Positions 20,476 to 63,713 of a DNA stretch of 64,000 bases are shown here, piece by piece; position 1 is the stretch's first letter; each line of letters starts with the position of its first letter. The translations under genes were made by a program, and so were the position numbers. The DNA comes from Solidesulfovibrio magneticus RS-1 (GTDB taxonomy: Bacteria > Desulfobacterota > Desulfovibrionia > Desulfovibrionales > Desulfovibrionaceae), in the NCBI RefSeq assembly GCF_000010665.1, contig NC_012796.1:4059501-4123500 (forward strand), in the 5' to 3' direction. The notes under the pieces were generated by a model. That model searched no databases and was not told where the DNA came from. It worked only from the letters and a program-made list of their open reading frames with translations.

Positions 20476-20551
20476 GTCCCCATCGTCTAGTGGCCTAGGA
20501 CGGCGGCCTCTCACGCCGCTAACAGGGGTTCAAATCCCCTTGGGGACGCCA
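20476..20551 (+). tRNA. tRNA-Glu (anticodon CTC)
   Basis: Acceptor GTCCCCA pairs with TGGGGAC; anticodon loop CTCTCAC gives CTC; T-arm carries GGGTTCAAATCCC; CCA is encoded. The 3' end abuts the island integrase region and is the likely attachment site. Confidence 0.97.
20524..20551. other. probable attL of the genomic island
   Basis: The 3' part of tRNA-Glu, including the T-arm and acceptor stem, is a classic target of tyrosine integrases, and the integrase gene starts reading away 74 bases downstream. No second copy of this sequence is seen in the window, so attR must be outside. Confidence 0.6.
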
Positions 20552-20591
20552 AAGAATTCAAAGGGTTACGACTGCTGTAGCCTTCTTGGAG

Positions 20592-20624: not shown

Positions 20625-21707
20625 TTACCCGTTCTGTACAAGCCTTACGGATGGCCGACCAGAGATTCCAGCTCTGGTCGGCTTTTCCTTTTTCGAGAAG
20701 ACGTCATTGAGGACGATCCGAACCCCACGAAGCTGGTGCAGGTAGCGGGCGGTGGTCGTCGCGGACTTGTGCCGCAGGATGGCCTGGATGAGGGTCAACT
20801 CCACCCCTGCCGCGTCCAAAATGGATGCAGACAAATGGCGGATGGAATGCCGGTCAAACTTCTTGACCCCAGCCAGGCCGCACAGTTCTTTCATCCAGTG
20901 CTGCCGGGAAACGAAAGGCACGCCCGTCACGGGATTCGGAAAAACCCACTCTCCCGCCACCTCCTGGCGGTGCTTGAAGAGGGTTTCAAACAGCTCGTCC
21001 GTCATAGGAAGCCAATCGTATTCCTTGTCGCCCCCGGCTCGCTTGGAAGTCCACAGGCAGACACGGCGGTTCCTGAAGTCCACGTCGGTCCACCGCAGCC
21101 GCAGGATTTCGTTCTTGCGCCCCGCCAAGTGTAAAAAGGCGAGGAGCATAACCTTGTCCTGCCCTTCCGCAACCGCATACACCTTCCAGAAGTCCTCCTC
21201 GGAAGGGATGTAGCGCGGTTTTTTCTGCGCCGGGAGCCTGTCGACGCGGCAAGGATTCTTCTCGAGGAAATCAAGGTACTTGATGCCCCAGTTCCACGCC
21301 GCGACGAGATTTTTACGCTCCTTGTTGGCAGCGTTTCCAGTCCGTTGAGTCCCCTGGATGCGCAAGTAGTCGAGCACCATTTTGGGCTTCAGTTCGACCA
21401 CAGGCATCGTGGGGTCAACGTACTGGAAAAACCGGCGGAAGACGGCAATCTTTTCTTCAACAACCTTCGAGCTGAACTTCTGGCAGAAATCCAGGTATTC
21501 TTCAGCCCACGTCACCAAGGTTGGCAAAGAGTCCGTACCGGTCTCGTGCGATTGCTTCTTGGGCGGAAGTCCGTTCCCGCTGCGCATCTTCACTTCCCAG
21601 GCGATGGCTTCCGCCTTGTTCGTGAAGATCGAGCACTTCCGCTCGCCGTTGACTTGCACCTGCGCGACCCACTTCGTCAGTCCTTTCTGTGTTCTTTTGT
21701 ACGGCAT
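20625..21707 (-). CDS. int: tyrosine recombinase (island integrase)
   Basis: A 360-residue phage-type integrase. The C-terminal catalytic domain has the expected residues: Arg in HLAGRKNEILRLRW (box I), the H-x-x-R in DRHSIRHLSAS, His in LRHKSATTTARYLH and the Tyr nucleophile in the same stretch. The N-terminus has a DNA-binding SAM-like region (WAEEYLDFCQKFSS). The start follows GGAGGAAAGCTG. It lies against tRNA-Glu and should catalyse integration and excision there. The excisionase-like gene upstream overlaps its 5' end by about 200 bases. Confidence 0.95.
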   Translation of the reverse strand: MPYKRTQKGLTKWVAQVQVNGERKCSIFTNKAEAIAWEVKMRSGNGLPPKKQSHETGTDSLPTLVTWAEEYLDFCQKFSSKVVEEKIAVFRRFFQYVDPTMPVVELKPKMVLDYLRIQGTQRTGNAANKERKNLVAAWNWGIKYLDFLEKNPCRVDRLPAQKKPRYIPSEEDFWKVYAVAEGQDKVMLLAFLHLAGRKNEILRLRWTDVDFRNRRVCLWTSKRAGGDKEYDWLPMTDELFETLFKHRQEVAGEWVFPNPVTGVPFVSRQHWMKELCGLAGVKKFDRHSIRHLSASILDAAGVELTLIQAILRHKSATTTARYLHQLRGVRIVLNDVFSKKEKPTRAGISGRPSVRLVQNG

Positions 21708-33004: not shown

Positions 33005-33015
33005 TTCTTTTATCC

Positions 33016-35634: not shown

Positions 35635-35643
35635 CACAACCCC

Positions 35644-36102
35644 TTATGCTGCTTCACAACTTTGAGAATTTTTAATTACGTACGCAACCAATCTAAAGGC
35701 AATGTCGCGAATCCCTTGGGTTGTGATGTCGATTTTCCAATCTATAGGTTCTTTGGGTCGTTGATCATACATAGTAAAGCTTTGAATATTGTCCTTGGAG
35801 CCAAAGGCTTGGAATCGACAATGGGCAATTGCATTGCGAAATTGCTGAATGAATTTATCTGCTTTAGAACAATCTTGATTGTCATCAAGATGAACCTGGA
35901 TTTCTTCACATGAACAAAGTTGGCTGAAAGGGATGGCAGGGACAAGCTTTCCTTCGTTTAGAAAGACAACCATTCCAAGCAGTGAATTTATCAATTGAGT
36001 TGCGTTGTAGGTGCCTGGGATGCCTTCCATGCATGCCTTTTCAATAAATTCCAGGTTGGCCCTGGTCTTTGCGGCAAAATCATGATGGAGGTGGGTGTAC
36101 AT
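35644..36102 (-). CDS. small HEPN-like protein inside the BREX operon
   Basis: A 152-residue protein between pglX and pglZ. The HEPN signature R-x4-H is seen in QQFRNAIAHCRFQ around residue 90, with a helical N-terminus (LEFIEKACMEGIPG and ATQLINSLLGMVVFLNEGK). HEPN proteins are often RNA nucleases in defence systems. The start could also be the TTG at 36108, which has a better-spaced AGGAGG; the first Met is used here. This gene is not part of the basic six-gene type 1 BREX. Its function inside the system is unknown; it could be an add-on effector or a regulator. Confidence 0.75.
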   Translation of the reverse strand: MYTHLHHDFAAKTRANLEFIEKACMEGIPGTYNATQLINSLLGMVVFLNEGKLVPAIPFSQLCSCEEIQVHLDDNQDCSKADKFIQQFRNAIAHCRFQAFGSKDNIQSFTMYDQRPKEPIDWKIDITTQGIRDIAFRLVAYVIKNSQSCEAA

Positions 36103-36118
36103 GGTCAAAGTTTTCCTC

Positions 36119-39775: not shown

Positions 39776-39812
39776 GAGAGTCCCTCTTTTATTCGAGCTG
39801 TCGTTAGGCACG

Positions 39813-42800: not shown

Positions 42801-43379
42801 AATATTACAGAATAAATCATATTTTCCTTGGAATGTCAGATGGCGCTCTAATTCTGCAACGTGAGGGAAAACATTTGAAAAACCTTGAATTTCATTAAAC
42901 ACATTCCAAAAAACCGAAAGCAGCGTGCCCCTTCCGTCTTTAGAGTCGGCACGGCTATCGATATTAAAGAGAACCACATCAGTGTTGCCAACAGTGATTT
43001 TTTTGATGTCGGCGAGCAGCAAGGGATCTTTTATTTTTGAATCAAAGAACTCTACGGCTTTTTTGATCTGTTTTGATTTTGACTCATGGGCTTCACGGTT
43101 ATTGAGAAGATAAGAAAGAATCTTGATGAAGTGAGATTTTCCGGATCCAAAGAAGCCAGACACCCATACGCCGATTCGACTATTGAGATTGGGATCATGC
43201 TTGTTGACTATAGCATTAATGTATGTTTCAAAAAATTTTCTAAAATGCTGATCTAATTCCTTTGTTACCACATATTCGTCTAGCTCTTGCCAAACAATGG
43301 CTTCATCGCGCTGATCAGCCTTGACGACGCCATTAATGGGACGAAAAAGATCTTTGCAAAAGAGGTTTCTGATCTGCAT
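39813..43379 (-). CDS. brxC: BREX P-loop protein BrxC
   Basis: A 1188-residue BrxC (DUF6079 group). The P-loop GFFGSGKS is at residues 75-82, preceded by ELDEYVVTKELDQHFRKFF, a family hallmark. Later features include IIFLVDEVGQFIGSDGQL (Walker B-like) and long helical segments. BrxC is a large ATPase required for BREX. The start at 43379 (MQIRNLFCKDLF) is preferred: it matches the family N-terminus and GGAG precedes it. The frame is open 11 codons upstream, overlapping brxB. The downstream gap to pglX is 37 bases. Confidence 0.95.
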   Translation of the reverse strand: MQIRNLFCKDLFRPINGVVKADQRDEAIVWQELDEYVVTKELDQHFRKFFETYINAIVNKHDPNLNSRIGVWVSGFFGSGKSHFIKILSYLLNNREAHESKSKQIKKAVEFFDSKIKDPLLLADIKKITVGNTDVVLFNIDSRADSKDGRGTLLSVFWNVFNEIQGFSNVFPHVAELERHLTFQGKYDLFCNIYKEVSGENWTEQRDDYRFYRDHVVAAFAKCLEQSEKAAEDWFDKAEDDQGITIQNFAKRVKEYLDRQGKDHRIIFLVDEVGQFIGSDGQLMLNLQTITEDLGRVCQGRAWVVVTSQEDIDAILGDLKSAKANDFSKIQGRFNTRLSLSSSNTDEVIQARLLEKKPEVAEQLANLFESKGDILKSQLSFSYDSASLKTFKDKQDFIANYPFVPYHFQLVQKIFESIRKAGATGLHLSRGERSMLDAFQSAAKNISEKEIGALVPLYQFYPAIESFLDTAVKRTIDQAHENDGLKKPFDIQLLQTLFLIRYVDIIKPNVDNLVTLFIDEVDADRLTLKRNIEEALQRLEKQTLISRNGDLYFFLTNEERNVTREIKNVEISSSEEVKLLAEIIYVEILKDQKQHRYKPNRRDYPFNRLLDGHPYGAKLDQEIGIEVVTPLSDEYSSFDALRCITYSSEHYGRAVIKLKDSKELGREVRIWIQTDKYIKQKGTSANTHSFEKILEDRQRENRDRRSRIIMLMEKMVLDADFYAMGQTLSFKAATPRIAAEETLDYIVQNLYNKFCYVKTLSDDPSKEIRAVLLSNDVSQLELEKGLTEVNTDAIREVREFISLLILKNHPVLLSELVEHFGCKPYGWPEFEIVLLVARLFMAGEINLLSDGSNLEPKDAVESMLKVGKWKSVKIMKRKVPSKEQIEKARKLCQDLFGKIGPETLDDLERTIRGELGRWQKELNKYQQLALTGSYPGGKEITRGLAVIQKVLGIRDTFEFISRFNEKRNELLDTCEDIHELLDFYTNQRPTWEKLIKSLGEFGKNQAALYKDINAGPALKQLHTIAEVPAPYGMLKDVDGLVSTISAINEKLVEERRAKALLELDAKIVNVTKGLDAMRADVDFRNHVLLPLQKVKLHVAEETSIPDISYQLEEFDQAVEDALDQIERMKSSPDPENPKKPSKTTKVIKPSAIAANSYLESPEDVNAFVEALRKTLLAELTGDVRIKLQ

Positions 43380-43404
43380 TAGCTTGATCTCCTGAGAGTG
43401 AGAT

Positions 43405-43980
43405 TTAGGCAACCAGCCTGAACGCGCGGTAATAATTACTTTCTTTCATCGTCCCAAATAGCCTGAGGCCTTGACCATCGAATTCGCCTGGGTAAAAAAT
43501 AACGAGGGGCGTGTCCCCCATAAGGGGGTGCAGGCTGTTCAGCAACGTATGGGTCCGCAGCATCGGCCACGAACTCCCGACGCCGGACATGAGGACCAAT
43601 TCCTGTTTTTCTGGCTGGGTGACTTGCACAAAATACTGAGCGATCTTTTGCTCATGGAGAGGACCCTTGAGAGCCTTTAGGAGTTCAGCATCTCCTTTTT
43701 CCCGTTGAAGCTGAAATGCCCTCGTTAGCAGCCTTCGCTCTTGCAGATAATCTATGAGAAGCTGAAAAAGATTAATATGTCGAAATCGTATGCCAGATTT
43801 GCGCTTTGGCAACTGATCCTCTATGGTTTCTATAAATGCTCGGACCTGCAACTCGTTGGCAGGTGGATAATCGAAGACATAAAAACCAATTTCATTTCCA
43901 AGGCCGGCATTCGATAGGAGTTCTTTAGAAACAAGCCTGTCAATTATTTTGTTCAGACGAGATTCAAACGTTGTGCTCAT
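43405..43980 (-). CDS. brxB: BREX protein BrxB (DUF1788)
   Basis: A 191-residue BrxB. Features: SRLNKIIDRLVSKELLS, FYVFDYPPANEL, VSGVGSSWPMLRTHTLLNSL and PLVIFYPGEFDGQGLRLFG, typical of DUF1788. The start at 43980 overlaps the brxA stop in ATGA, indicating tight coupling, and its end lies close to brxC. A required part of BREX with unknown biochemistry. Confidence 0.94.
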   Translation of the reverse strand: MSTTFESRLNKIIDRLVSKELLSNAGLGNEIGFYVFDYPPANELQVRAFIETIEDQLPKRKSGIRFRHINLFQLLIDYLQERRLLTRAFQLQREKGDAELLKALKGPLHEQKIAQYFVQVTQPEKQELVLMSGVGSSWPMLRTHTLLNSLHPLMGDTPLVIFYPGEFDGQGLRLFGTMKESNYYRAFRLVA

Positions 43981-44648
43981 TGGATGGCCTCCAGGCATTC
44001 GCGTGTATATCGCAATGCATCATTATCAAGAAGATTTTTAACTTCTGGGAGTAGCGAGAAATGAATAATCTTTAAGTTTCGAGTAGAATCAATAATTTTG
44101 GCTTCGGCAAGTATTCTAAATACAACCTGCCGAATCTTTTTTATTGTTGAATCTGACCATTCTACGACAGTCGGATCTATTTGCTTGCACTCCTCAAAAT
44201 ATGCATCCCATTCACGATATGTCACTTGACTCTGAAATGTCTTTAGCTGAAGATTTACGACGTTTCTTATGAAATCTCCAAGAATACGACTATGCATAAT
44301 AGCTGCCGCCAACAAGGTTTGCACAGCCTGTTCATGAGAGCCATCACGAATCATAATCCAAAAATCTTCATGTAGGGGGAGTAATCTATTTCGGATGAGC
44401 TTTGATTGTCGCCGCGTGGTGGCGGGGCTGCGCTTCTGGAGAACATTGTCCATTAAAAGCGCCGCGTAAAACGCCTTTTCGTCAAGGCCTTGCAAAAGAA
44501 GGTCGGCGATTTTACGGCTCTCGTTAACCATTAAAGAGCCTGCAACGATCTCGCCATTAAATCGGGGTTCTGGCACGGAAGTCCCTTGAAGGTGATGTTG
44601 AGAATAATACTTTTCAGGTTGTCTGAACTCTGCAGATCTCAATACCAC
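43977..44648 (-). CDS. brxA: BREX protein BrxA (DUF1819)
   Basis: A 223-residue BrxA. Family text: SLMVNESRKIADLLLQGLD, LLMDNVLQKRSPATTRRQS and IRNRLLPLHEDF, then AAAIMHSRILGDFIRNVV. BrxA is a small DNA-binding protein at the head of type 1 BREX operons. No ATG precedes the conserved N-terminus; the GTG at 44648 is used, and a TTG two codons later is possible. There is no BrxR regulator in the usual upstream place, but an inverted repeat lies 69 bases upstream. Confidence 0.9.
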   Translation of the reverse strand: MVLRSAEFRQPEKYYSQHHLQGTSVPEPRFNGEIVAGSLMVNESRKIADLLLQGLDEKAFYAALLMDNVLQKRSPATTRRQSKLIRNRLLPLHEDFWIMIRDGSHEQAVQTLLAAAIMHSRILGDFIRNVVNLQLKTFQSQVTYREWDAYFEECKQIDPTVVEWSDSTIKKIRQVVFRILAEAKIIDSTRNLKIIHFSLLPEVKNLLDNDALRYTRECLEAIQ

Positions 44649-46187: not shown

Positions 46188-48053
46188 CTAGCTCTGTTCG
46201 AAAGCCTTAAATAAATTAATCCATTGTTCCTCAAGGGCATCGTCAACATTGCCGTCAAACTTGTGTTTAATGCGCTTGCTTAATTCAACCTTCCACCCTA
46301 AATCTAAAGACAGTTGATTATCTCGCGCAAAATCTTCAAACTGCGGAATAACTGGTTTTCCTGGATCGATAGCATCTTCCTGCAAGCCATCTTCTGTTCT
46401 GAATATCCTGTCAAAGCTGTCAACAAGCAGGCCTAGCGGAATTAAATCCTCTATTTCAGACCCGATTTTGTGGGAAAAAGTGTCACAATCGAGCACCTTC
46501 CCCTGCGCACTTTTGTACAAACTTTGCTTCAAACTTTCTTGAAATTGTTTCCCTGTCTTGTCTGAATCCAGAAGAGCAACAGGCAAAGAGGATCGTCCCC
46601 CCTGAATTATGGAAACTACAGGCCTCACTGCTTTGGCTCCGCCGACGGGGATAAATACCATCTCTTTTTTAGGTTGGAGCTTACCCTTTGCAACAAGATG
46701 ATTTTTGATCATCGTTAAATAGAATTGATCAGAAACTCCTTCGACAATTATAATATCACAGCCAACGAGCAAGCTTTGTGAAGCAGTTATGCCTATAGCA
46801 GCATTGACCGGCTGTATTGCTTTTTTTTCTTTATCCGCACGACTTATGTCATTAGACGCTTTCGTCATGCCTTTCTCAGTGTACACTGCCTTCACTTTGT
46901 CTAAGTTGTTATGGTCAACAAGAAAAGGGAGGTGCGTCGTATAAATCAATTGGTTTTTGTCTGCGAGGCGTTCAAAAAAGCGGATCAAATCTGTCTGTGC
47001 ATTTGGGTGTAGGCTAAGGCCCGGTTCATCCAGAAGCAAAACACAGTCCTTATGATTTTCTTCACTTTCAGAAAGAAAAACCAAAAAAAAGCTAAAGAAC
47101 CACTGAAGCCCTTTGCTGCGGGATTCGAGTTCAATCGGAGCGGGGCGTTCAATATCACTTACAAGAATTCGAAAGTATTCACCGTCGGCATTAAAATGAA
47201 AAATATAATCACCCTGAGTCCACCACGCCTTGAACTGTGCCGTCAGGCGGGAAGCCGCAGATGTGACCTTGGCAAAGCGCTCTTGTTTGTTTCTAGACTC
47301 TTTTTCAATTTGAGGTTGCGCTTTTTGTCGAGGATCATTGTTAGGGACAGTTTCTCGTCCTAGATCAAGAATCTCTTTTGGATCGAGCTTAAGATGTCCA
47401 AAGAGAACCTTTAAGGTACGAGCTTTCATTCGTTCTTTGCCAGTTAAAGCATCGATACGACCAAGATCGTCAATTACGCGGGGAAGGTAGAGGTCAGAAT
47501 CTAAATTACCATACTCTGAGTAATAAACAAAACGGGGCATCGCTTCACATATCACGTTAAAAATGTCTTTCCCGACAACATCTTCTAGCTCTTCGGACAA
47601 CAACTCTCCTTTGTCGTTTGAAAGATAGATATAGAAATCTTCATTATAATTTTTCTTGATAAGAAGATAATCAGTAAAAACTATTCTGCCGGCAACTTCT
47701 GCGCCGGCCTCAGCTTGATCGTCCTCTCCCGATGATTGAGCGAGATACTTTTCATATTTCTTTGAAAAAGACTTCAACTCTGTCTCATTAAGTTTGAATA
47801 ACACCTCAATAAAAGGCTCTTTTTTTCTGATCTCGCCATTAGCTTCAACCTCAAAATATTCATCTCGAGGATAATCCAGCAAAAGATCAATTTTCGTCGC
47901 GTCGTCAGCAGGATTAAACTTCCATAACGGCAAAAGCAGGTTTGTCTTGCCTGATTCGTTAACGCCAACAAAACAAGCAAGTTGATCAATTTCGATCCAT
48001 TCAGTTTCTTTGACAGAACGGAATTTATTTACTTTATATTTAGAAAGACGCAT
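46188..48053 (-). CDS. OLD-family ATPase/TOPRIM nuclease
   Basis: A 621-residue protein. Walker A GVNESGKTN is at residues 30-38. The central region has SRSKGLQWFFSFFLVFL (signature-like), VLLLDEPGLSLHPNA (Walker B/D-loop) and TTHLPFLVD (H-loop). The C-terminal TOPRIM has IIIVEGVSDQFYL and ALLDSDKTGK, the Glu and DxD metal ligands. This is the OLD/GajA-type architecture, used in several phage-defence systems. No partner gene such as GajB is adjacent, so it is probably a stand-alone class 1 OLD nuclease. It lies in the defence part of the island. Confidence 0.9.
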   Translation of the reverse strand: MRLSKYKVNKFRSVKETEWIEIDQLACFVGVNESGKTNLLLPLWKFNPADDATKIDLLLDYPRDEYFEVEANGEIRKKEPFIEVLFKLNETELKSFSKKYEKYLAQSSGEDDQAEAGAEVAGRIVFTDYLLIKKNYNEDFYIYLSNDKGELLSEELEDVVGKDIFNVICEAMPRFVYYSEYGNLDSDLYLPRVIDDLGRIDALTGKERMKARTLKVLFGHLKLDPKEILDLGRETVPNNDPRQKAQPQIEKESRNKQERFAKVTSAASRLTAQFKAWWTQGDYIFHFNADGEYFRILVSDIERPAPIELESRSKGLQWFFSFFLVFLSESEENHKDCVLLLDEPGLSLHPNAQTDLIRFFERLADKNQLIYTTHLPFLVDHNNLDKVKAVYTEKGMTKASNDISRADKEKKAIQPVNAAIGITASQSLLVGCDIIIVEGVSDQFYLTMIKNHLVAKGKLQPKKEMVFIPVGGAKAVRPVVSIIQGGRSSLPVALLDSDKTGKQFQESLKQSLYKSAQGKVLDCDTFSHKIGSEIEDLIPLGLLVDSFDRIFRTEDGLQEDAIDPGKPVIPQFEDFARDNQLSLDLGWKVELSKRIKHKFDGNVDDALEEQWINLFKAFEQS

Positions 48054-51063: not shown

Positions 51064-51780
51064 ATGAACAAAACAAAGATTGATTGGACTGATTGTACAT
51101 GGAACCCGACAACTGGATGCACAAAGATAAGTGCTGGATGCGCAAATTGCTATGCGGAATTAATGGCTAAAAGATGCAAGCTGATGGGCCTGAAAAAATA
51201 TCGAAACGGTTTTGATCTGACGCTGCATCCCGACATGTTGGATAAAAAGTTGAGTTACCGAGAGCCAAAGATGATATTCGTAAATTCTATGTCGGACATG
51301 TTTCACAAAGAAATTCCGCTTGAATTTATTGATGAAGTTTTTACGTATATGCGACGCGCTCCTCAACATATTTTCCAAGTGTTGACAAAACGAGGCGATC
51401 GACTGGAAGAATTGTCCCCCTATTTGTTTTGGCACGACAACATATGGATGGGCTTGACCGTCGAAAACGAGCAGGCGTTAAGTCGGATTGATAACCTGCG
51501 AACAACTCCAGCAATTGTACGTTTTGTTTCCATTGAACCACTCCTTGGTCCACTTCCAGCCCTGAACTTCGAAGGCATCAATTGGGTTATCGTCGGTGGC
51601 GAATCAGGTCCCAAAGCTCGTCCGATGGACTTGGACTGGGTTCGTCCAATTCGAGATAAGTGCATCGAAATGAACATACCATTCTTTTTTAAACAAAAAG
51701 GCGGGTTCAGAAAACAGGAAGGTTATAACATCCTTGATGGCCAAGTTTGGCACCAGTTTCCGCCTAACCATATAAAATAG
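51064..51780 (+). CDS. DUF5131 (phage Gp37/Gp68) family protein
   Basis: A 238-residue protein. The N-terminus NPTTGCTKISAGCANCYAE carries Cys spaced C-x6-C-x2-C, and MIFVNSMSDMFHKEIP and VSIEPLLGPL are family hallmarks; the cysteine pattern is reminiscent of radical-SAM-type iron-sulfur sites. The family occurs in phages and islands, often next to three-Cys-motif proteins; its activity is not known to me. The ATG at 51064 follows GAGAGG; the frame is open further upstream. It is 99 bases before the large fusion gene and on the same strand, so the two may be linked. Confidence 0.85.
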   Translation: MNKTKIDWTDCTWNPTTGCTKISAGCANCYAELMAKRCKLMGLKKYRNGFDLTLHPDMLDKKLSYREPKMIFVNSMSDMFHKEIPLEFIDEVFTYMRRAPQHIFQVLTKRGDRLEELSPYLFWHDNIWMGLTVENEQALSRIDNLRTTPAIVRFVSIEPLLGPLPALNFEGINWVIVGGESGPKARPMDLDWVRPIRDKCIEMNIPFFFKQKGGFRKQEGYNILDGQVWHQFPPNHIK

Positions 51781-51879: not shown

Positions 51880-54800
51880 ATGGATAATTCTAAGATTACA
51901 TTTAAAATAGAACTTGCAGGCAAATCTCCATATAGCACGTCAACAAAATCAGATTACATAAAATTTCTAGAGAGTAATTTAAGCGATATCTATCAAGGCA
52001 ACATAGGTTTGTATTGGTCACGTCTTATTGAAAGCGATGGCCAAAAATTATATTTTCCTTTTGTCGACATCGATCCTTTCTTGGACAAAGTTTCACATGG
52101 CGAAATTGAACTTATAAACGACTCCATCTTCAGAGTAAAAATTTTCATACAGGCGCTCTCAAAATTAGGAGTACTTAACCGTTTTAAATTTATTGCAACA
52201 GGCGGATATGGATTCAGAGCAATCTCCAACATTCTTTTAAGTCAAGATGACTACGATGGATTTGTTGGCTTTATAAAAACAGAACTCAATAGTTGTCTGA
52301 TTGACTATCAACCATCAGAAAACACAACAGCACCATACCAAATACTTGCACGCAAGGATAACCCTTTCCAAAACCATAAGCAATTAGTCGGCAGACATTC
52401 CACTTTAGTTGATAGCAACGGGATCATGGATGGTTTCGGCTACTACGACTATTGCTCAATTACAAGCAATGAGCTTAATCCTTATTCTTATGTTGAAGCA
52501 GCCAGGGAATTATTAATTTTCACTATTATCTCTGACGTATCTTCACTTGGCGAGTTCGGCAGCAAAATCCAATTGTACAAAGAATTACGCAAGGACTATG
52601 CTGATAGAAAAATAAAATTTTTTGATATATCAAAAAAATTCAAGGCGATATCTTCGGATAAAACTTTCGAAATTTTAAATAGCCACGGGTATTCATTCAA
52701 GGAGATAGATAAAGGTATTGGCAAGATTTACACATTCAGCGACAAAACATGCCCTGCCTGTGGCCATTCCAATGGCAATGCATTCGTAACACCGCCATAC
52801 TTTCGATTGAAATGTTTTCGGTCTACATGTCCTGCGTCGATTTCTAATGGAGGAATGTCTTTAAATGAATGGTCGGGATTATTTCTGCAAAATGAAAACA
52901 AGAGCCAGCCACTCGTTGATCCTAATATCACACCCCTAAGGATGACTCTCGACGAGGCGCAGCAGGCTATTACTGACAGCTTAAACTCAAATAGTGATGT
53001 CTTTTTAAAAGTTACTCCAGGCTCTGGAAAAACCCATCTGGCCTTGGAATACGCTTGCGAGCAAGCTCTTCGTGGGAATAAAATTATATATAGCACTTAC
53101 AACGTAGCCCAAGCAGACGAAGCTTTCAATGTTGCCTTGCAAAACTTAGCCAACAACAACTTAACACACCGACTGCACACCCAAGAAGCTTCATGCAACT
53201 GCCAAGATGATTATAAATCAATGGTAAACCTTGGATACTCGCCATCAACATTACTTTGCAAGCGTTGTTCTGGAAAAGTAAATTGCGGGTATCACACTGA
53301 ACGCACGCAGATGTACCCCGGCATTTATTTTACAACGCACCATATGCTTCGTGAGCTTGATCCAGATATATTTGATGCTGATATAACAATAATTGATGAA
53401 AATATCTTGCCTTTAGCGCTCAGTGAGAACAAAAGCTTTTCAGAGGCAGATTTACGAGCGCTTTCTGCTCACGTCGAAGGACATAGCGCTGCCATAATTG
53501 GAGAAATAATAAAACTTGTGACTGACGTATACAACAAAAAGACAAGCAAATATCACGAGATACTGCTTGTTAAAAACTACCATGAAACAAATCACGACAA
53601 CGTACTTGATTTTCTAAGCCGAAAATTGAGCACAACAAGCGTTTCAATTATTGAGACAATTAACAATACAGTTGAAATTTTAAAGAAAAATTACAGCCAA
53701 CTTTACGTCTCTCAAGTAAACTACAATGCCGTCCGGTGGCTGTCTGGTTTTTATGAAGAAGATGTATTCTCATGCATATATTTCAAGAACAATGGAATAG
53801 TTGAATTTTATACTAAGCAAATCAACAAGTCGCTTCTGTTCAATTCCAGATACATTTTTCTTGATGCTACGGGCAACGATTTGATCGTCAATAAAATATG
53901 CAATAAATCAGTTCAGCCAAAAAATATCGACATCGATTGGAATTGCAGAGCAACATTTATTGAAAAAAATATCAAGAAAAGCACAGACATCCATGACAAC
54001 GAAATGTCAGAGATTATTGAAACAGGCCTGTCGCATTTTACACGCGACAAAGTGCTTATCGTTTCTTTCAAGAGCAATTGCGAACAACTGCTGAATATAT
54101 GCAGCGAAATTAAACCAGACACTCAATTTGAGTTCTACAATTTCTTCGGACAAAAAGGGACTAACCAATTTAAAGACTTTGATGCTATTTTTGTAATTGG
54201 TCTTCCCTATCCAAATATTAACACCGCTTGGCAGGATGCCCACATTTTATTCCCAGGAGTTGACCAGGACGGCCTCAGGGACAGCTGGCCATATATTGCA
54301 ATGGAAAGTGAGCTGCTCCAACTCATTCACCGGGTACGCCCCGTGCGCAAGGACCACCCGATTGAACTGGTTGTGGCTGGCAATAGCTACCCAGGGTCAC
54401 TTCCTGAGCCATCCCAAAGAATATCCTTCAAGCGTAGAGAAGATCCAGTAGGAACGGCTGTCGATCGGTTACGAAAATTTATCGATTACTTCGGATTCTA
54501 TGACGTAACATTGGAGTATATAGCTGGTGTAGCAACCACCGATTCTGAATCAAAAGCCACTCAATTCCGTAAGTTATTATTTGACACGATTGGACACCTC
54601 GTTGCGCAACACAAAGCTCAGTATTTGAAAGCCGGGCCTGATTGTGAGGGGACAGAGGGGACTCATACTTGTTCTCGAAGCACACTTAGTATCCATCATG
54701 TCATTTCAAATTTATATGTACATTTACAAAAATTAAAAATCATTGATACTGAACGAAAAGCTCAGTCTAGTACCATTATAGATACTATAATGGAAATAGA

Positions 54801-56532
54801 CCGAGCTTTCGATTGGAAATCAATAACTTTTAAAAATGATCAAATTGATTCAATTGATCAAAATGAAATCAAATCGTTTACTTTAAAATTATTTACTTTG
54901 TACTTATATTTAAATGGAACAGAATGGGAGGTTAATCTCCCCATGCACCTTGTCCATAAAAATCAGGCCCGGGACACCAGAACTCAGCTCAAGAATGAAT
55001 TTGAGCACATGTCCAAGTATAAAATAAAATCTCTGCATTCAAAATATAACAATATCGAAGGAGTTGAAATTGAAAATAATGGTTTATATTTTTATGCAGC
55101 ATTGGCCAAGCTGGATATAATAAACAACGTCTTGCTGACGAGCTACAGACAAGAACATAATAACAACTACTTGGAATGTGACTTTAATATATTATTAGTA
55201 TATTTCAGCCAAAACAAGACATACACACTTACTAAGAATAAATTTCATGAATACCATGTCGATACAATTGATAATATAAAAACAAACGATAGCTATGATT
55301 TTGTAGTCACCAATAACCACAAGCAGTGCTTTAATTGTTTTAATAAAAATACCGCAGGAAGTGTTCACGATATATTTTTAACACACAGAATTATATTCAA
55401 TAATAATTCAGATACAAGTCTTGATTTAATAGGCTTAGGGTCAAAATACGATGTAGAAACTGACTTTAGTACAGGATACAAATCTTGCAAATCAATATAC
55501 AACATATATCAAAAACAAATGGACTTATTAAAAACAAAGAAAATTTGTTACATATACCAGATGGAATCAGAGATATTATTGCTTAACAACAAATATCTTA
55601 AAAGTAATGGTTTTTCCGTCAACGGCGAGAAGCTTGACCAGATGAAGGCTATTGCGAGCACTGCCAACAATTCAAATGACGAACGAACTCTTGAGACGAT
55701 CGAAAAGTTAGTGCAAAAAGACGAGAAATTCCCCAGTATTATAAATCAAATTGAAACTACCACAGGGAGAAGCGGATATAGAATCCTTTCAACTCTGAAT
55801 AAAAAATTTAGATTATTATTCTTACCAAGTGAAGGCCATGTTATTTTGGCATTTGATATGAAACACTTTGAGCCAACCATTATATCCAGCTTGTCAAATG
55901 ATACATACGCATTGGGACTGATAAACTCAGGAAAAGATATTTACACTGAAGTCGCCATGTCAATTTCTGGAGCATTAAATGAGGAGCGATTTAACGACAG
56001 ATCCTTTGGAAAGGTGCTGTTTAATATTGCCATAAATGGCGGAAATGAACATGCCTTGGTCTCTAGATGCTATGAAACGAACGTTATAATTACTCGGTCA
56101 TGTTCAGCAGAAATTTTCAACAATTTTAGAAATATGTTTCCTGTAATATTTCAGTTCCAAAATAGAATTCTCCATATGGCTCGTACATACGGCAAGATGT
56201 ATACAAAATTTTCAAGAGTACTTTACGTCGATGACAATGTGAAAGATTCAACCATTGTTAATTTTGTTGTCCAAGGGTCAGGGGCTGATGCCTTCAAAAG
56301 GTTACTGCTGAAAGTCAATGATTTCTTGAATCATCCCGAGGAAGATATATTGTTTCATCATTTCGACGCCCTGTATATCCAGGTGCCTGAGCACGGTGCC
56401 GCCAAACGCATGGAGGCGCTCAGGGAGATAATTGAGGATAGTCTGTCGTCCGACTTTGGCAATGTCCGATTCTCGGTTGCTGCCTCGATGCGCAGATCCT
56501 GGGCCGAGGAGGACACCATTATACAGGTTTAG
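51880..56532 (+). CDS. putative primase-helicase-family A DNA polymerase fusion
   Basis: A 1550-residue protein with three enzymatic parts. (1) Residues 1-290: AEP-type primase features, FVDIDPF (D63, D65) and GGYGFRA (109-114), though the usual His after Gly is Arg. (2) Zinc-binding cluster at C291, C294, C312, C317. (3) Helicase, 370-830: Walker A PGSGKTH (380-386), cysteine cluster C439, C441, C460, C463, C469, Walker B IIDEN (DE at 506-507), and LLQLIHRVRPVR (814-823, motif VI). (4) Family A polymerase from about 1240: motif A AFDMKHFEP (D1326, E1331), motif B RSFGKVLFNIAINGG (R1374, K1378), QGSGADAFK, and motif C HHFDALYIQV (D1496). The region between 900 and 1240 is unassigned. It is AT-rich. 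Domain calls are by motif only. Confidence 0.8.
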   Translation: MDNSKITFKIELAGKSPYSTSTKSDYIKFLESNLSDIYQGNIGLYWSRLIESDGQKLYFPFVDIDPFLDKVSHGEIELINDSIFRVKIFIQALSKLGVLNRFKFIATGGYGFRAISNILLSQDDYDGFVGFIKTELNSCLIDYQPSENTTAPYQILARKDNPFQNHKQLVGRHSTLVDSNGIMDGFGYYDYCSITSNELNPYSYVEAARELLIFTIISDVSSLGEFGSKIQLYKELRKDYADRKIKFFDISKKFKAISSDKTFEILNSHGYSFKEIDKGIGKIYTFSDKTCPACGHSNGNAFVTPPYFRLKCFRSTCPASISNGGMSLNEWSGLFLQNENKSQPLVDPNITPLRMTLDEAQQAITDSLNSNSDVFLKVTPGSGKTHLALEYACEQALRGNKIIYSTYNVAQADEAFNVALQNLANNNLTHRLHTQEASCNCQDDYKSMVNLGYSPSTLLCKRCSGKVNCGYHTERTQMYPGIYFTTHHMLRELDPDIFDADITIIDENILPLALSENKSFSEADLRALSAHVEGHSAAIIGEIIKLVTDVYNKKTSKYHEILLVKNYHETNHDNVLDFLSRKLSTTSVSIIETINNTVEILKKNYSQLYVSQVNYNAVRWLSGFYEEDVFSCIYFKNNGIVEFYTKQINKSLLFNSRYIFLDATGNDLIVNKICNKSVQPKNIDIDWNCRATFIEKNIKKSTDIHDNEMSEIIETGLSHFTRDKVLIVSFKSNCEQLLNICSEIKPDTQFEFYNFFGQKGTNQFKDFDAIFVIGLPYPNINTAWQDAHILFPGVDQDGLRDSWPYIAMESELLQLIHRVRPVRKDHPIELVVAGNSYPGSLPEPSQRISFKRREDPVGTAVDRLRKFIDYFGFYDVTLEYIAGVATTDSESKATQFRKLLFDTIGHLVAQHKAQYLKAGPDCEGTEGTHTCSRSTLSIHHVISNLYVHLQKLKIIDTERKAQSSTIIDTIMEIDRAFDWKSITFKNDQIDSIDQNEIKSFTLKLFTLYLYLNGTEWEVNLPMHLVHKNQARDTRTQLKNEFEHMSKYKIKSLHSKYNNIEGVEIENNGLYFYAALAKLDIINNVLLTSYRQEHNNNYLECDFNILLVYFSQNKTYTLTKNKFHEYHVDTIDNIKTNDSYDFVVTNNHKQCFNCFNKNTAGSVHDIFLTHRIIFNNNSDTSLDLIGLGSKYDVETDFSTGYKSCKSIYNIYQKQMDLLKTKKICYIYQMESEILLLNNKYLKSNGFSVNGEKLDQMKAIASTANNSNDERTLETIEKLVQKDEKFPSIINQIETTTGRSGYRILSTLNKKFRLLFLPSEGHVILAFDMKHFEPTIISSLSNDTYALGLINSGKDIYTEVAMSISGALNEERFNDRSFGKVLFNIAINGGNEHALVSRCYETNVIITRSCSAEIFNNFRNMFPVIFQFQNRILHMARTYGKMYTKFSRVLYVDDNVKDSTIVNFVVQGSGADAFKRLLLKVNDFLNHPEEDILFHHFDALYIQVPEHGAAKRMEALREIIEDSLSSDFGNVRFSVAASMRRSWAEEDTIIQV

Positions 56533-56810
56533 TCGGCCGGTACCTGACCGATTTGACCAGAAATCCGCAAGCGATGGCTATTTCGTCCCAGGACGCCGCT
56601 GGTTGCGTTTTCCTGGCCAAGACGACCTTTGCCCTGCCTTGGAGCAAGAACTGCGCTTACACGGCGAATTTGGAGCGTCTGCCGGCAAGGAATATTTTAG
56701 TGCTACCAGACAGTTGCTGGCTATCAGTGTCTTAACTTCTAAAATGAACTTTTAAAGTAAATTTGTTGTTTTGAAAAAAACCTAAATAAAACACAAGAAT
56801 TGAGGGAAAG

Positions 56811-57098
56811 ATGAAAAGTGAAAAGTTGTACAATTTAATTGTAAGGGCAGGATCATTAAAACATGATGCTGATGCATTGGGCGACACCCCGCAGAAGGCT
56901 TTAATCAATCTTCGCAAGATTTTTAAGTTAAGATTGTTTTTGATTAAGAACAAATATGTTATCTCTAATCCTACTCCTCGGCCAATAGACCAAGGATTTT
57001 CTCGGCAAGAGCGTAAACGTAAACTCAGACTGGCATTCAAAAATAAAAAAATAATGTTTCCAGAGTATCCGCATCTGAAGGACTTTGAAAATGAATAA
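56811..57098 (+). CDS. unknown small protein
   Basis: A 95-residue protein, Lys/Leu-rich, mainly helical (DTPQKALINLRKIFKLRLF and then SRQERKRKLRLAFKNKK). GAGGGAAAG precedes the ATG. It overlaps the next gene by eight bases, so the two are probably translated together. The 278 bases before it hold a GC-rich frame I do not support as a gene. No family recognised. Confidence 0.6.
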   Translation: MKSEKLYNLIVRAGSLKHDADALGDTPQKALINLRKIFKLRLFLIKNKYVISNPTPRPIDQGFSRQERKRKLRLAFKNKKIMFPEYPHLKDFENE

Positions 57099-57624
57099 AC
57101 TTGGCAAATTACAAAAAGCAATTATTCATTTATTCCATGACGACGATTATATCGGGGTAGACCAAGTAATTGAGCATTTAAATTTACAGCGCACCCGTTC
57201 AAATCTTGTTTCAGTTCGTAGAGCTTTTCACCTTTTACGAAAACGAGGAGTGCTAAATGTTGCCAAATACGATTATGACGATGGTCACGCCTGGGGTTTG
57301 ATAGCTTGGTTGCCACACACCAAGTCACCAACGGTCACTGAAGAAATAAAAGTGACGGATGTCGAAAGTGTTGTGCTGAATTTTTTAAATTATTTAAAAG
57401 AAGAATTTAATTCAGACTCTGGTGTAGACTACAAAATCATTCTCAAATACATTAAAAAATTAAATGGTAAAATCGGAAATATTCATGAAGATGACGCAAG
57501 AGTTCCCGTGTCTTATCACAGGGCCTTAAAATCACTTGCTACTAAAAACAGTATCGTTCTTGATTTCATCAAAGACAATGGAAGAATCGAGGCTGTTTCC
57601 TTGAATTCGTCCAATAATATATAA
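57091..57624 (+). CDS. winged-helix-like unknown protein
   Basis: A 177-residue protein. Residues 1-60 look like a winged-helix DNA-binding region: KLGKLQKAIIHLFHDDDY, VDQVIEHLNLQRTRSNLVSV and RRAFHLLRKRGVLNV. The C-terminal half repeats a similar arrangement (VVLNFLNYLKEEF, YHRALKSLATKNSIVLDF), so it may contain two related domains. The ATG at 57091 follows AAGGA; a TTG two codons earlier is possible. Likely a regulator, but unproven. Confidence 0.6.
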   Translation: MNKLGKLQKAIIHLFHDDDYIGVDQVIEHLNLQRTRSNLVSVRRAFHLLRKRGVLNVAKYDYDDGHAWGLIAWLPHTKSPTVTEEIKVTDVESVVLNFLNYLKEEFNSDSGVDYKIILKYIKKLNGKIGNIHEDDARVPVSYHRALKSLATKNSIVLDFIKDNGRIEAVSLNSSNNI

Positions 57625-57729: not shown

Positions 57730-58014
57730 CTACTTGTAGCTGTTGTTTGATGTTATCTTATTGTCGTTACTATTAATTACTTCAATTATTTGATCATAAC
57801 GTTCATGTCCGCTCTCACCACCCATCCGCACGACATACGATAAGAGTTTTGCAACAGGCAGCTTGCCAATGCACCGGTCGCACAGGGTGAGCATGCAATT
57901 GCTCGTGCCAACTTCAATTCCACCGTCATGAAATCTCTCGTAGTTTAGATTTAATGAATAAAAATAAGTACTTTCAATAATATCTTTGCCACACAAATCG
58001 CATTCAAATATCAT
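57730..58014 (-). CDS. small zinc-ribbon-like protein
   Basis: A 94-residue protein. CDLCGKDI at residues 5-12 and CMLTLCDRCIGK near residues 40-51 give two Cys-x2-Cys pairs for one metal. GGAGG lies a few bases before the ATG. I recognise no family. It lies divergent to the cyclotransferase-like gene. Confidence 0.65.
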   Translation of the reverse strand: MIFECDLCGKDIIESTYFYSLNLNYERFHDGGIEVGTSNCMLTLCDRCIGKLPVAKLLSYVVRMGGESGHERYDQIIEVINSNDNKITSNNSYK

Positions 58015-58143: not shown

Positions 58144-58545
58144 GTGATACCAATGAATCTCTTTGTTTACGGCACACTCCGCCAGGGACAATCTAACTAC
58201 CAACGTCTCCTTAACGGAAGAGAAGGATTTGAATTTGTCGGTCCTGCGACGACGGTAAACAAGTACACCATGTTTTCGTCAGGGATTCCATTCGTCCACA
58301 AGCAACCAGAGACGTCTTTAATCAAAGGTGAAGTGATCATGGTCTGGGACAATAAGTTGATCAAATCGCTGGATGCCTTGGAGGGCCATCGGGACGGCGA
58401 GCGCCAAGGCTACCATCGGGAACAGACGCCTGTCCGATTAGATAATGGAATGAACATGTCCGCTTGGATCTATTTTTTTTACGGGGTCCCTCATGGTTCC
58501 ATTGTCCACTCTGGCGATTGGTTGGGTCGAAATAACAATAAATAA
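58144..58545 (+). CDS. gamma-glutamylcyclotransferase-like (AIG2/GGCT) protein
   Basis: A 133-residue GGCT-fold protein. LFVYGTLRQGQSNYQ is the substrate-binding loop and ALEGHRDG carries the catalytic-type Glu. Family members cyclise gamma-glutamyl groups or modify other gamma-linked amino acids. The GTG at 58144 is preferred because GGAG lies about nine bases upstream; an ATG three codons later is possible. The next gene encodes an N-formylglutamate-amidohydrolase-like protein, so the pair could act on gamma-glutamyl compounds. Confidence 0.8.
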   Translation: MIPMNLFVYGTLRQGQSNYQRLLNGREGFEFVGPATTVNKYTMFSSGIPFVHKQPETSLIKGEVIMVWDNKLIKSLDALEGHRDGERQGYHREQTPVRLDNGMNMSAWIYFFYGVPHGSIVHSGDWLGRNNNK

Positions 58546-58558
58546 CGAGAATGTTGCC

Positions 58559-59278
58559 GTGAAAGTTAACTACAAATATATGGACTACGTCAGGTATTGG
58601 CCTGGAGATTCGCGTATCCAGGTGATTATTGATGCACCTCACTGTGCCGGTGAGCCGAACGAGTCCGATGAGAGGACGTTGGAACTTTCACACGACTTGG
58701 CCGAAGTCACTGGTGCTGGAGTGATTCAATCGTTGGTCCCCAGGACCCTAGCTGACCTCAATCGTGATATTGACTTCAGTAATGCTGCCTCGGTTCAAGC
58801 GCATGCCCAACAACGAAAAGCTTTGTCCCACATCCTTAGGCATAAAAATGCCATTAATGGTGGAAAAGAAGTCAACAACTGTTTTTTGTATATCTCCCTG
58901 CACGGCATGAAGAATTATTTTTCTGCCGACTTGGTGCCGATCGACATAGAACTTGGCACTAGATGGGGAGCGTTGTGCGACGAAGACACTGCACAGTATT
59001 TAAAGGTTGTCTTGGGTGACTCTGGAACTTACAATGTTTTGTTGGACAATAGATTTATTGGGACAAAGTGCCTGTACCGGCATATCAACGGAGATCCTCG
59101 AGTGCCAAGCTATAAAGGGTATGGACGGAATTTCAAAGTTATCCAGGTCGAACTGAGTCATGACCTTCGATTTAATTATTACAGCACAACATTAAAAGCA
59201 TTAGCCGTGGCTATTGCTTCGATTCAGCAGAGTTTATTTAAGAGCAATAAGAATAGACTACACGCGATGATTAACTAA
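58559..59278 (+). CDS. N-formylglutamate-amidohydrolase-like protein
   Basis: A 239-residue protein. The pattern IIDAPHCAGEPNESDERTL, then SLVPRTLADLNRD, FLYISLHGMKNY and VIQVELSHDLR follows N-formylglutamate amidohydrolase-type hydrolases, with a D-L-N-R motif and His residues for metal. The start is uncertain: GTG at 58559 or ATG at 58580; I use the first because it follows the preceding stop closely. Fold assignment is by eye and the substrate is unknown. Adjacent to a GGCT-like gene. Confidence 0.55.
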   Translation: MKVNYKYMDYVRYWPGDSRIQVIIDAPHCAGEPNESDERTLELSHDLAEVTGAGVIQSLVPRTLADLNRDIDFSNAASVQAHAQQRKALSHILRHKNAINGGKEVNNCFLYISLHGMKNYFSADLVPIDIELGTRWGALCDEDTAQYLKVVLGDSGTYNVLLDNRFIGTKCLYRHINGDPRVPSYKGYGRNFKVIQVELSHDLRFNYYSTTLKALAVAIASIQQSLFKSNKNRLHAMIN

Positions 59279-59290
59279 AGGGAGATGGAA

Positions 59291-59590
59291 ATGTTCACAT
59301 TGATCGGTCGAACGTTCATTGCTTACGATGACAAGAACCTTGGTAGATCAACTGTAGGTTTGCTTACTCAGTCCCAGGGTAACACCAACGAGGACGAATG
59401 GTTTTCGTTGCTGGTGAATTTGTTTGAAAGCAATTCCAAGATTTACGTAGGTGCATTTCGTGGAATGGCAATAGACATTGACGAAGTAAAATCAATTATT
59501 TTTCATGATGCCAACCAAGCTCAGGAAAGAATAAATATGTTAAAAGATTTGATTCTGGATATGCTTCAAAAATTTGAAAACAAGCTATAG
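59291..59590 (+). CDS. unknown small protein
   Basis: A 99-residue protein starting at the ATG with GGGAG six to seven bases upstream. Contains YDDKNLGRSTVGLL and INMLKDLILDMLQKFE, otherwise no motif. It follows the amidohydrolase-like gene by 12 bases on the same strand, so it may be in the same operon. Confidence 0.5.
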   Translation: MFTLIGRTFIAYDDKNLGRSTVGLLTQSQGNTNEDEWFSLLVNLFESNSKIYVGAFRGMAIDIDEVKSIIFHDANQAQERINMLKDLILDMLQKFENKL

Positions 59591-62170: not shown

Positions 62171-62192
62171 CTCCTTGAATAAATTCAAGGAG
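62171..62192 (+). promoter_or_regulatory. palindrome enclosing the ribosome site
   Basis: CTCCTTGAAT-AA-ATTCAAGGAG is a perfect 10-bp inverted repeat, and its 3' arm contains the AAGGAG ribosome site of the gene at 62199. It could be an RNA hairpin blocking translation or an operator bound by a protein. Confidence 0.75.
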
Positions 62193-62198
62193 GCTTTT

Positions 62199-62891
62199 AT
62201 GGACTATGACACAGTTTATTTAACATGGGATGATTTGAAAGAACGGGGATGGTCAAGGCTTTTGATGTTGGCGTATTTTGGCGGACCTGATATTGTTTTG
62301 CAGCGATCCGAAGGGCAACAACCGCTTGAGCTTTTTGAAGAAGAAAGCGTTGTCTCTTGTGAAATTGGCCAAGACTCAAGAGATTTTTTTGACAAATATT
62401 CTGAATTAGTTTCAATGGCAATGGAAAGAAAATTATTTTATAATGAAAAAAGAAGTAATAATTTTTGCGAATCTTTTGATTTGCTAATTGACATGCCCGA
62501 CCTTGATACATTGCTCGACAGAGCAAGGACTGAGTACGATCGCAGAATGTTCTTAGAAACTGGTGATGAATTTCACCCCGACGGAGAGACTTGGTCTGAT
62601 TCAATTTCAGAAGACGCGCTGAAAAGGGTTGCCGTTCTGATGCTCAAAAATAGTTCAAATATCAACACTGCTCTTTCACATTTAAAAAACATAAAACATG
62701 GCCTTGCTGAACTGGGGATGCCAAGCGAAACATACATGTCTTGCGTCGATAAGTTGTACGATAAGTTTTACACTACTGTGAAAGAAAAATATCCCGATCT
62801 TGAAAGTGCGGCTTTGGAACTAAAACAATCAGAAACAATCGATGGATATACAAGTGAAAACATTTATCGAATTAAATCGATTTTCAACTAG
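62199..62891 (+). CDS. RGWS protein, copy 1 (unknown)
   Basis: A 230-residue protein. The N-terminus YLTWDDLKERGWSRLLM and then LAYFGGPDIVLQ resembles a small DNA-binding module seen in several island proteins. The rest is helical with no motif I recognise. The ATG at 62199 is preferred because AAGGAGG precedes it. A second gene with the same N-terminus starts at 63834, so the two are paralogues. Both follow serine recombinase genes, suggesting a linked module. Confidence 0.7.
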   Translation: MDYDTVYLTWDDLKERGWSRLLMLAYFGGPDIVLQRSEGQQPLELFEEESVVSCEIGQDSRDFFDKYSELVSMAMERKLFYNEKRSNNFCESFDLLIDMPDLDTLLDRARTEYDRRMFLETGDEFHPDGETWSDSISEDALKRVAVLMLKNSSNINTALSHLKNIKHGLAELGMPSETYMSCVDKLYDKFYTTVKEKYPDLESAALELKQSETIDGYTSENIYRIKSIFN

Positions 62892-63165: not shown

Positions 63166-63713
63166 ATTCACCTTGGGTTCGCCAACCAAGCTGGTCTCCG
63201 TGTTGACGAGTTCCTGGAAATTGAGATCTCCAGCCGGAAGTCGACAAAGGAACGCCGAATCGACGACCTGTTGGAGCGCTTGGCACCTGGGGACACTATA
63301 GTCGTTAGCGAGTTGTCGCGGCTAGGGCGCTCGCTCGGGGAGATGGTTCGAATCGTGGAGCAACTGAAGGAAAAGGACGTGGCGCTGATTGCCATCAAAC
63401 AGGGGATCAACACTCGAAGCGATTCCGACATGGCGTCCAAGTGCATAATCTACCTGTCAGGGATGTTCGCTGAGTTGGAACGGGACTTCTTGAGCCAACG
63501 AACAAAAATGGTTTGGAGAGAGCCAAGGCGCAGGGCAAGGTCCTTGGTCGTAAGAAAGGAAGTCTTGGCAAATCGAAAATGGATAATAGAATCGATGAGA
63601 TTAAACAACTTATTGAATTGAATGTTCCAAAAGCATCTATTGCAAAGATTCTTGGGGTTAGTCGCCAATCGTTGTACAAATTTATTGAAAGTAGGAGCAT
63701 TAATATTCAATGA
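63166..63713 (+). pseudogene. broken serine recombinase gene
   Basis: The frame starts inside the protein, at LGFANQAGLRVDEFLEIEIS, with a stop codon before it, so the N-terminus with the catalytic Ser is missing. It continues through SELSRLGRSLGEMVRIVEQL and LERDFLSQRTK. At about 63510 the frame shifts: the C-terminal resolvase helix (LERAKAQGKVLGRKKGSLG, then ASIAKILGVSRQSLYKFIES) is read in another frame. Both defects suggest decay. Confidence 0.8.

Follow-up and report, generated by a model that had tools for sequence, protein, structure and literature searches.

A gene joining a probable primase, an XPD-like helicase and a family A DNA polymerase in Solidesulfovibrio magneticus RS-1

What could a single bacterial gene that joins primase-like, helicase and DNA polymerase parts be doing on a probable genomic island? 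Such a gene lies at 51880..56532 in a 64,000-nucleotide stretch of Solidesulfovibrio magneticus RS-1 (NC_012796.1, positions 4,059,501 to 4,123,500), which we call the window and to which coordinates refer unless another locus is named. Our favoured answer, to which we give a probability of about one half, is an element-encoded all-in-one replicase, in which a plasmid-type primase-helicase replication protein was joined to a Klenow-type PolA fragment. The encoded chain holds, in this order, a domain that is probably a primase of the archaeo-eukaryotic primase (AEP) type, a zinc-type cysteine cluster, an XPD-like superfamily 2 (SF2) helicase, an exonuclease-like segment and a family A polymerase:

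51880..56532, + strand: primase-like/helicase/family A polymerase fusion gene, a single 1550-codon open reading frame with a 59% identical full-length relative in another species of the genus (G007)
51880..52629, + strand: probable AEP-type primase domain, residues 1-250 (D63-x-D65, GxGF-R113, D142), from motifs, a profile match and weak fold hits on a poor model
52732..52839, + strand: zinc-type cysteine cluster C291/C294/C312/C317, invariant in 9 of 9 rows, with a weak PF08273 match in 2 of 9 members
52915..53559, + strand: first helicase half, residues 346-560 (Walker A at 381, DE at 506-507), from motifs, family alignment and XPD match
53194..53286, + strand: iron-sulfur-type cysteines C439, C460, C463 and C469, lying between Walker A and DE and unchanged in all 11 rows
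53845..54579, + strand: second helicase half, residues 656-900 (LDATG at 661, HRVRP at 817), from motifs and family alignment
54580..55134, + strand: linker, residues 901-1085, no family match
55135..55524, + strand: exonuclease-like segment, residues 1086-1215, aligned to the same part of host PolA
55525..55779, + strand: shortened thumb, residues 1216-1300, 55 residues long where the measured host PolA has 125
55780..56529, + strand: family A palm and fingers, residues 1301-1550 (D1326, E1331, R1374, K1378, N1382, N1386, D1496), from PF00476, Foldseek (1.1e-13) and a profile match (3.2e-34)

The frame starts with the ATG at 51880, runs for 1550 residues with no internal stop, ends with its stop at 56532 and has a single match within its own genome. 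Its relative in G007 is an open gene of 1552 codons that aligns from end to end, ruling out a chance reading frame, and recurrence of the same fusion in G007 and in Desulfatibacillum alkenivorans rules out an assembly error joining two genes. Nor is the gene a copy of the host PolA, which is encoded separately on the chromosome (C2:423911) and differs in its O-helix. An earlier sequence-only reading had described one 1550-residue frame with three replication-type motif sets, and this gene is real (PF00476 at E=2.4e-23 and the 59% relative). Every residue it named is in place: D63-I-D65, G108-G-Y-G-F112, C291/C294/C312/C317, the Walker A G381-S-G-K-T, C439/C460/C463/C469 ahead of D506-E507, and D1326, K1378, N1382, N1386, D1496 and A1497. 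As for the three modules it placed in the chain, the polymerase and the helicase hold, and the primase is only probable.

Conservation between the window and G007 varies along the protein. Identity is 61.6% in the AEP part, 64.2% in the zinc part, 58.6%, 52.6% and 72.7% in the first half, middle and second half of the helicase, 59.5% in the linker, 31.7% in the exonuclease-like part, 36.6% in the thumb, and 64.4% in the palm and fingers. Over the whole gene the ratio of nonsynonymous to synonymous divergence (dN/dS) is 0.16, at a dS of 1.9 that is close to saturation. By part, the ratio is restricted to regions other than the AEP, exonuclease-like and thumb parts, where dS is saturated; it is 0.10-0.18 in the zinc, helicase and palm parts, which indicates that these are under purifying selection, and 0.41 in the linker. 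The linker also has a proportion of synonymous differences of 0.43, below that of other parts (0.65-0.99), perhaps from exchange.

The C-terminal part is certainly a family A DNA polymerase. PF00476 matches residues 1205-1543 with 83.2 bits against a cut-off of 34.3, and profile-profile comparison of four fusion polymerases (window, G007, D. alkenivorans and Syntrophaceae, the order used below) with host PolAs gave E=3.2e-34 across a span from the exonuclease-like part to the C-terminus. The nearest PDB sequence match was the apicoplast PREX polymerase, over residues 1280-1545. An AlphaFold model from three rows was good at residues 1320-1539 (block means of 71-94 pLDDT) and poor in its front part; with it, Foldseek found PolA structures from E=1.1e-13, the PREX polymerase ranking first, so that the family A palm expected by the sequence-only reading was found together with the fingers. 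Equivalents of R668, D705, E710, R754, K758, N845, Q849 and D882 (Klenow numbers) are kept in all four fusions.

Several features set this polymerase apart from host PolAs. Asn had been noted at the O-helix Phe and Tyr positions (1382 and 1386 of the fusion), and it stands there in an ungapped count from the conserved Lys that agrees with the profile-profile alignment; a MAFFT joint alignment gaps the O-helix in the window and G007 and gives other letters (G and H). In the ungapped register the Phe position (762) is Asn, Asn, Asn and His in the four fusions, and the Tyr position (766) is Asn, Asn, Tyr and Asn. Host PolAs had Phe and Tyr in 19 of 19 cases (20 loci were tried, one of which, L031, is a helicase fragment without the motif); the search pattern was modelled on the usual motif, and unusual PolAs may have escaped it. 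These aromatics are a usual, not a defining, feature of family A polymerases. The replacement of the motif C Glu by Ala (A1497) was likewise seen, motif C reading FDA, YDA, RDG and HDE in the four. The thumb segment is 55, 56, 47 and 118 residues long, against 125 in one host PolA. Inspection of the exonuclease-like segment by eye showed no catalytic acids, which is not special, as 17 of 19 host PolAs likewise had no D-x-E-T/L pattern in the stretch inspected.

Residues 346-900 are well supported by sequence as an XPD-like, iron-sulfur-type SF2 helicase. The best PDB match of the helicase family profile was Thermoplasma XPD (E=3e-5), with DinG at E=0.045. All four cysteine columns are invariant in the 11 rows of the family alignment, and three of the four coincide with cysteines of XPD in the printed alignment, in agreement with the iron-sulfur type first proposed from the cysteines between Walker A and B. 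These cysteines would be expected to hold a metal cluster, and the enzyme would unwind 5'-3' if it is XPD-like in behaviour.

The N-terminal domain is, in our estimate, quite probably a member of the AEP superfamily. Eight of nine related N-termini retain motif I (DxD/E), and the counts for the motif II GxG and the motif III Asp are the same. The motif II His is replaced by Arg113, invariant among the nine, and Arg or Lys is described at this position in the DR0530-like AEP family (PMC5862659). Profile comparisons used eight of the nine rows, leaving out that of D. alkenivorans. Against AEP-TOTE domains together with a bridging protein (G124), the score was 32.8 (P=7e-4, probability 26%); motifs I and II lined up with their counterparts and D142 stood opposite an Asp. 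In this comparison, 60 column shuffles per side gave maxima of 23.4 and 18.4, and a reversed template gave 13.0. Counting against the label, the three fusion rows alone scored 25.2 (P=0.009) and a comparison with two Prim-Pol-type rows scored 12.9 (P=0.42). NCBIfam gave no family above cut-off for the nine relatives. Foldseek with a low-confidence N-terminal model placed a CAPP Prim-Pol first, and its top 50 rows also include RepB', yeast primase and LigD polymerase, each at E>=0.11. This is only a hint that the fold may be AEP, and we weigh it lightly because the program regards searches with such models as meaningless. The AEP label is the softer element of the domain assignment because family and PDB searches do not support it and it draws on motifs, one profile-profile match and weak fold hits.

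A relative in the same helicase family (L062) has a PF09250 primase at its N-terminus (E=6.7e-26), and the primase slot ahead of this helicase family looks swappable. Genes with this helicase and a PF09250-type primase lie at L062 7692-10724 and L063 7594-10599, the latter judged by eye. In the window protein, the conserved motifs predict primase activity, and the cluster C291/C294/C312/C317 is a putative metal site.

Where else does the fusion occur? Five loci were found: two complete in the genus, one in D. alkenivorans without primase motifs, and two ended by contig limits. The genome sets of the scans overlap. The full fusion was present in 2 of 99 genomes of one scan, its own and G007. 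Across the phylum, 24 of 395 genomes matched the front-half profile, including a full fusion in D. alkenivorans (G134, a frame of 1528) and a helicase-polymerase half at a contig end (G288); apart from these and the gene's own genome, the matches were primase-helicases or weak P-loop matches. Within the order of G134, 2 of 194 genomes matched, G134 itself and G601, whose N-terminal part has intact primase motifs and ends at a contig limit after 351 residues. Eight of 347 genomes of the class matched, with no fusion beyond its own genome and G007, and one of 23 in a further scan, again G288. Of two contig scans, which rest on short peptide patterns and can miss relatives, one returned two loci, matching G134 (D. 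alkenivorans DSM 16219) and G288 (Syntrophaceae UBA1163), and the other returned none. Among plasmid and phage records none covers 80% of the fusion protein, and four scans of viral contigs found no relative. A phage gene is not supported by these searches, and all 18 phage matches fall in the polymerase part.

Polymerase-free primase-helicases, annotated 'hypothetical protein', are carried by plasmids pDCAR2 (Solidesulfovibrio carbinolicus, 10,471 bp) and pDRET01 (Desulfohalobium retbaense, 45,263 bp). Their AEP-like motifs, zinc cysteines and iron-sulfur-type helicase come in the same order as in the fusion, but at 1131 and 1103 residues they end after the helicase and a short tail, with no polymerase. 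Other primase-helicase genes lie near a ParA-like gene (G043) and near an integrase-like gene (G744); ParA-like, integrase-like and signalling labels on relatives' neighbours come from reading unless a family match is named. In G084 the primase-helicase is two genes, and a remnant is present in G003. Because polymerase-free primase-helicases sit on plasmids, these sequences suggest that the fusion arose by joining a plasmid replication protein to a PolA fragment. The series of relatives, with and without the polymerase, with primase motifs lost, or with the neighbouring cassette and no fusion gene, is useful for following the rise and decay of all-in-one replicases.

The layout had been said to recall PREX, whose primase is of the DnaG type and whose helicase is of the DnaB/Twinkle type. 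PREX is a plastid protein in which a primase-helicase is followed by an exonuclease domain and a family A polymerase (PMC8113025), the same order as in the fusion, whose own exonuclease residues look lost. The resemblance stood for the polymerase, nearest to PREX in both sequence and fold, and not for the front half: in the PDB search of the fusion, PREX was matched by polymerase-part residues only, the primase and helicase sequences of PREX not being compared directly. Kinship with PREX as a whole is rejected on this basis, and the two look, from sequence, like parallel arrangements that are alike in layout only.

Other known systems share parts of this plan. GP55, the replicase of lactococcal phage 1706, establishes that helicase, AEP and family B polymerase can work in one chain (PMC12205980); it is a mobile-element single chain like the fusion, but its helicase, of superfamily 3, comes first, and the exonuclease of its family B polymerase is active. 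Among family A polymerases, TV-Pol and CcPol are carried by elements, tied to a helicase and proposed or shown to prime (PMC2579912, PMC7581432, PMC10061031), and the thumb of Staphylococcus aureus CcPol is also short. Their helicases are of another type, and the consulted text of these sources describes neither an AEP nor an SF2 helicase fused to them. TV-Pol is defined as a minimal polymerase alone, with a D5-type helicase or with a helical N-terminal domain, and without nuclease link (PMC2579912); the fusion falls outside the TV-Pol/CcPol definition, since its chain includes an SF2 iron-sulfur-type helicase and retains an exonuclease-like segment. The PrimPol-PV1 families, compared by description only, include mobile-element AEPs fused to helicases, some SF2-like, and the parts of the source available mention neither a family A polymerase fusion nor an iron-sulfur-type helicase (PMC5862659). 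Cyanobacterial CyRepA and CyRepX, with helicase domains, support plasmid replication (PMC10899382). Within the accessible portions of the open-licence PMC literature, no bacterial single chain of AEP-like domain, XPD-like (SF2) helicase and PolA was found.

We favour an element replicase because of the polymerase-free plasmid relatives, the certain primase in the same slot of L062 and the kept catalytic residues. Recurrence of the fusion in D. alkenivorans, purifying selection on the zinc, helicase and palm parts and the precedent of GP55 also speak for it. In such an enzyme the helicase would open the duplex, 5'-3' if XPD-like, the AEP-like domain would lay a short primer and the family A domain would extend it. 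Since the exonuclease residues are not visible and the thumb is short, synthesis would be short and of low fidelity, as in the start-up of element replication or second-strand filling, and not long-range copying. The coupling of the three steps, the history of the fusion and element replication as its purpose are what we infer here. If the protein works as proposed, a single chain of about 1550 residues would combine three activities that are otherwise divided in cells among many.

A fuller form of this reading remains tentative, and we think it somewhat doubtful: a self-sufficient replicase of bacteria, which came to its primase-helicase-PolA order separately from the malaria plastid enzyme and has an XPD-like iron-sulfur helicase and a changed O-helix and short thumb tuned to its own AEP primers, might start and extend DNA on the excised island. 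Should the protein work as proposed, the PREX layout would have been built twice, each time separately, and a helicase of the XPD class, familiar from repair and transcription, would take part in starting replication. Two points become testable: the hand-over of an AEP primer to a family A polymerase inside a single chain, and the effect of the double O-helix Asn on a PolA.

The neighbourhood of the gene is partly conserved. The DUF5131 and IHF-like neighbours described earlier are both present, and a cassette running from the DUF5131 gene to a 101-residue gene is common to the window and G007 at 47-89% identity; its genes other than the fusion are listed here, followed by two features of the island's left end:

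51064..51780, + strand: DUF5131 gene just upstream of the fusion (PF07505, E=5.5e-93), 89% in G007
56553..56735, + strand: 60-residue reading frame of the conserved cassette, no Pfam match, 47% in G007
56811..57098, + strand: 95-residue gene, 66% in G007
57085..57624, + strand: 179-residue gene, 75% in G007
57730..58014, - strand: 94-residue gene, 70% in G007
58144..58545, + strand: GGACT-domain gene (PF06094), 83% in G007
58493..59278, + strand: FGase-like gene (PF05013), 70% in G007, the match beginning at about residue 23
59285..59590, + strand: 101-residue gene, 62% in G007
20507..20556, + strand: tRNA-Glu end, repeated exactly over 50 bp at window-coordinate 97154-97203 and probably the island's left attachment site
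20625..21707, - strand: tyrosine integrase beside the tRNA-Glu end, left copy (PF00589, E=2.7e-17)

DNA matches between the window and G007 run on rightward through RecD2 and UvdE genes. The two 50-bp tRNA-Glu repeats probably bound a genomic island of about 77 kb, and G007 has a 42-base tRNA-Glu fragment (97.6%) about 40 kb past its fusion gene, on the matching side. The island also carries a complete-looking BREX set on the - strand (30971-44648: BrxL, PglZ, PglX, BrxC, BrxB, BrxA).

Several observations weigh against an element replicase. One of the nine related N-termini, that of D. alkenivorans, lacks the AEP motifs; Pfam, PHROG and PDB profile searches of the N-terminus did not find AEP; the AEP-TOTE profile without G124 scored 22.6 (P=0.027), inside the shuffle range (maximum 23.4); and the AlphaFold model of residues 1-345, from two rows, was poor (pLDDT 40.7). 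Genome G003 keeps the DUF5131 gene (92%), RecD2 (95%) and most cassette genes without the fusion gene. A 407-residue gene with no Pfam match (L118 16191-17414) sits at its place there, between DUF5131 and the cassette genes, and the DNA match picks up again nine bases short of the fusion gene's end. Near the integrase, a DUF927 gene (22379-24292) is a possible second replication helicase of the island, and a search of repeats near the fusion gene gave no iteron array. In addition, the primase-polymerase of the ICETh2 island is reported to be dispensable for replication of its element (PMC7693054).

Replicase, defence and repair had all been put forward as roles; the front half, judging by its plasmid relatives, more likely had its origin in replication, and the data do not decide the present use. 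A repair or damage-tolerance enzyme of a mobile repair cassette, whose helicase opens damaged or stalled DNA for re-priming by the primase and gap filling by the altered polymerase, would agree with an XPD-class helicase and with a changed O-helix and short thumb suited to error-tolerant synthesis. RecD2 and UvdE do follow in the region common to the window and G007, but at 9-25 kb from the fusion, with which they need not act; by reading, D. alkenivorans shows neither within about 8-9 kb of its fusion, and the plasmid setting of the front half's relatives also speaks against repair, so we consider it unlikely. Somewhat more doubtful is defence, in which invading single strands would be opened or used as template, as proposed for the ICETh2 primase-polymerase (PMC7693054). 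The BREX set and an OLD/AriA-like gene on the island give that idea a setting, but no PADLOC model matches the fusion protein, no BREX was seen by reading in the G007 and D. alkenivorans neighbourhoods, and here too the relatives of the front half are on plasmids.

Alternatively, an older element could have left this replication gene behind, with little for it to do in the present island. In keeping with this are a cassette without it in G003, the loss of AEP motifs in D. alkenivorans and an island resolvase split over two frames (63271-63713). An intact 1550-codon frame and low dN/dS in the measurable parts make this improbable. Slightly less probable still, in our view, is that the PolA part itself primes, as in CcPol, the AEP-like part being a fading relic. 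D. alkenivorans does keep polymerase residues and not primase motifs, and the short thumb resembles that of S. aureus CcPol (PMC10061031), but the primase motifs are intact in the window, G007 and G601, the AEP part is about as conserved between the window and G007 as the palm (61.6% against 64.4%), and intact Pol models keep conserved helix O residues (PMC10061031), unlike these fusions. An element replicase stays the answer we favour.

Some further observations concern the neighbouring genes. DUF5131 is common on mobile DNA and not specific to the fusion gene, with relatives in 401 of 72,556 plasmid records. Upstream of the primase part in G601, a gene (L080 9837-10610) is weakly DUF5131/radical SAM-like, below both cut-offs; by these matches the fusion has a radical-SAM-type gene ahead of it in another lineage too. 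An ATPase gene at 46188-48053 resembles AriA and OLD defence ATPases, and the split gene at 63271-63713, of the serine-resolvase type, is a single frame in G007. Three related small genes without known family (238, 176 and 233 residues; 62175-62891 and window-coordinates 64002-65488) are repeated along the island, and their relatives in G003 match more than one of the three.

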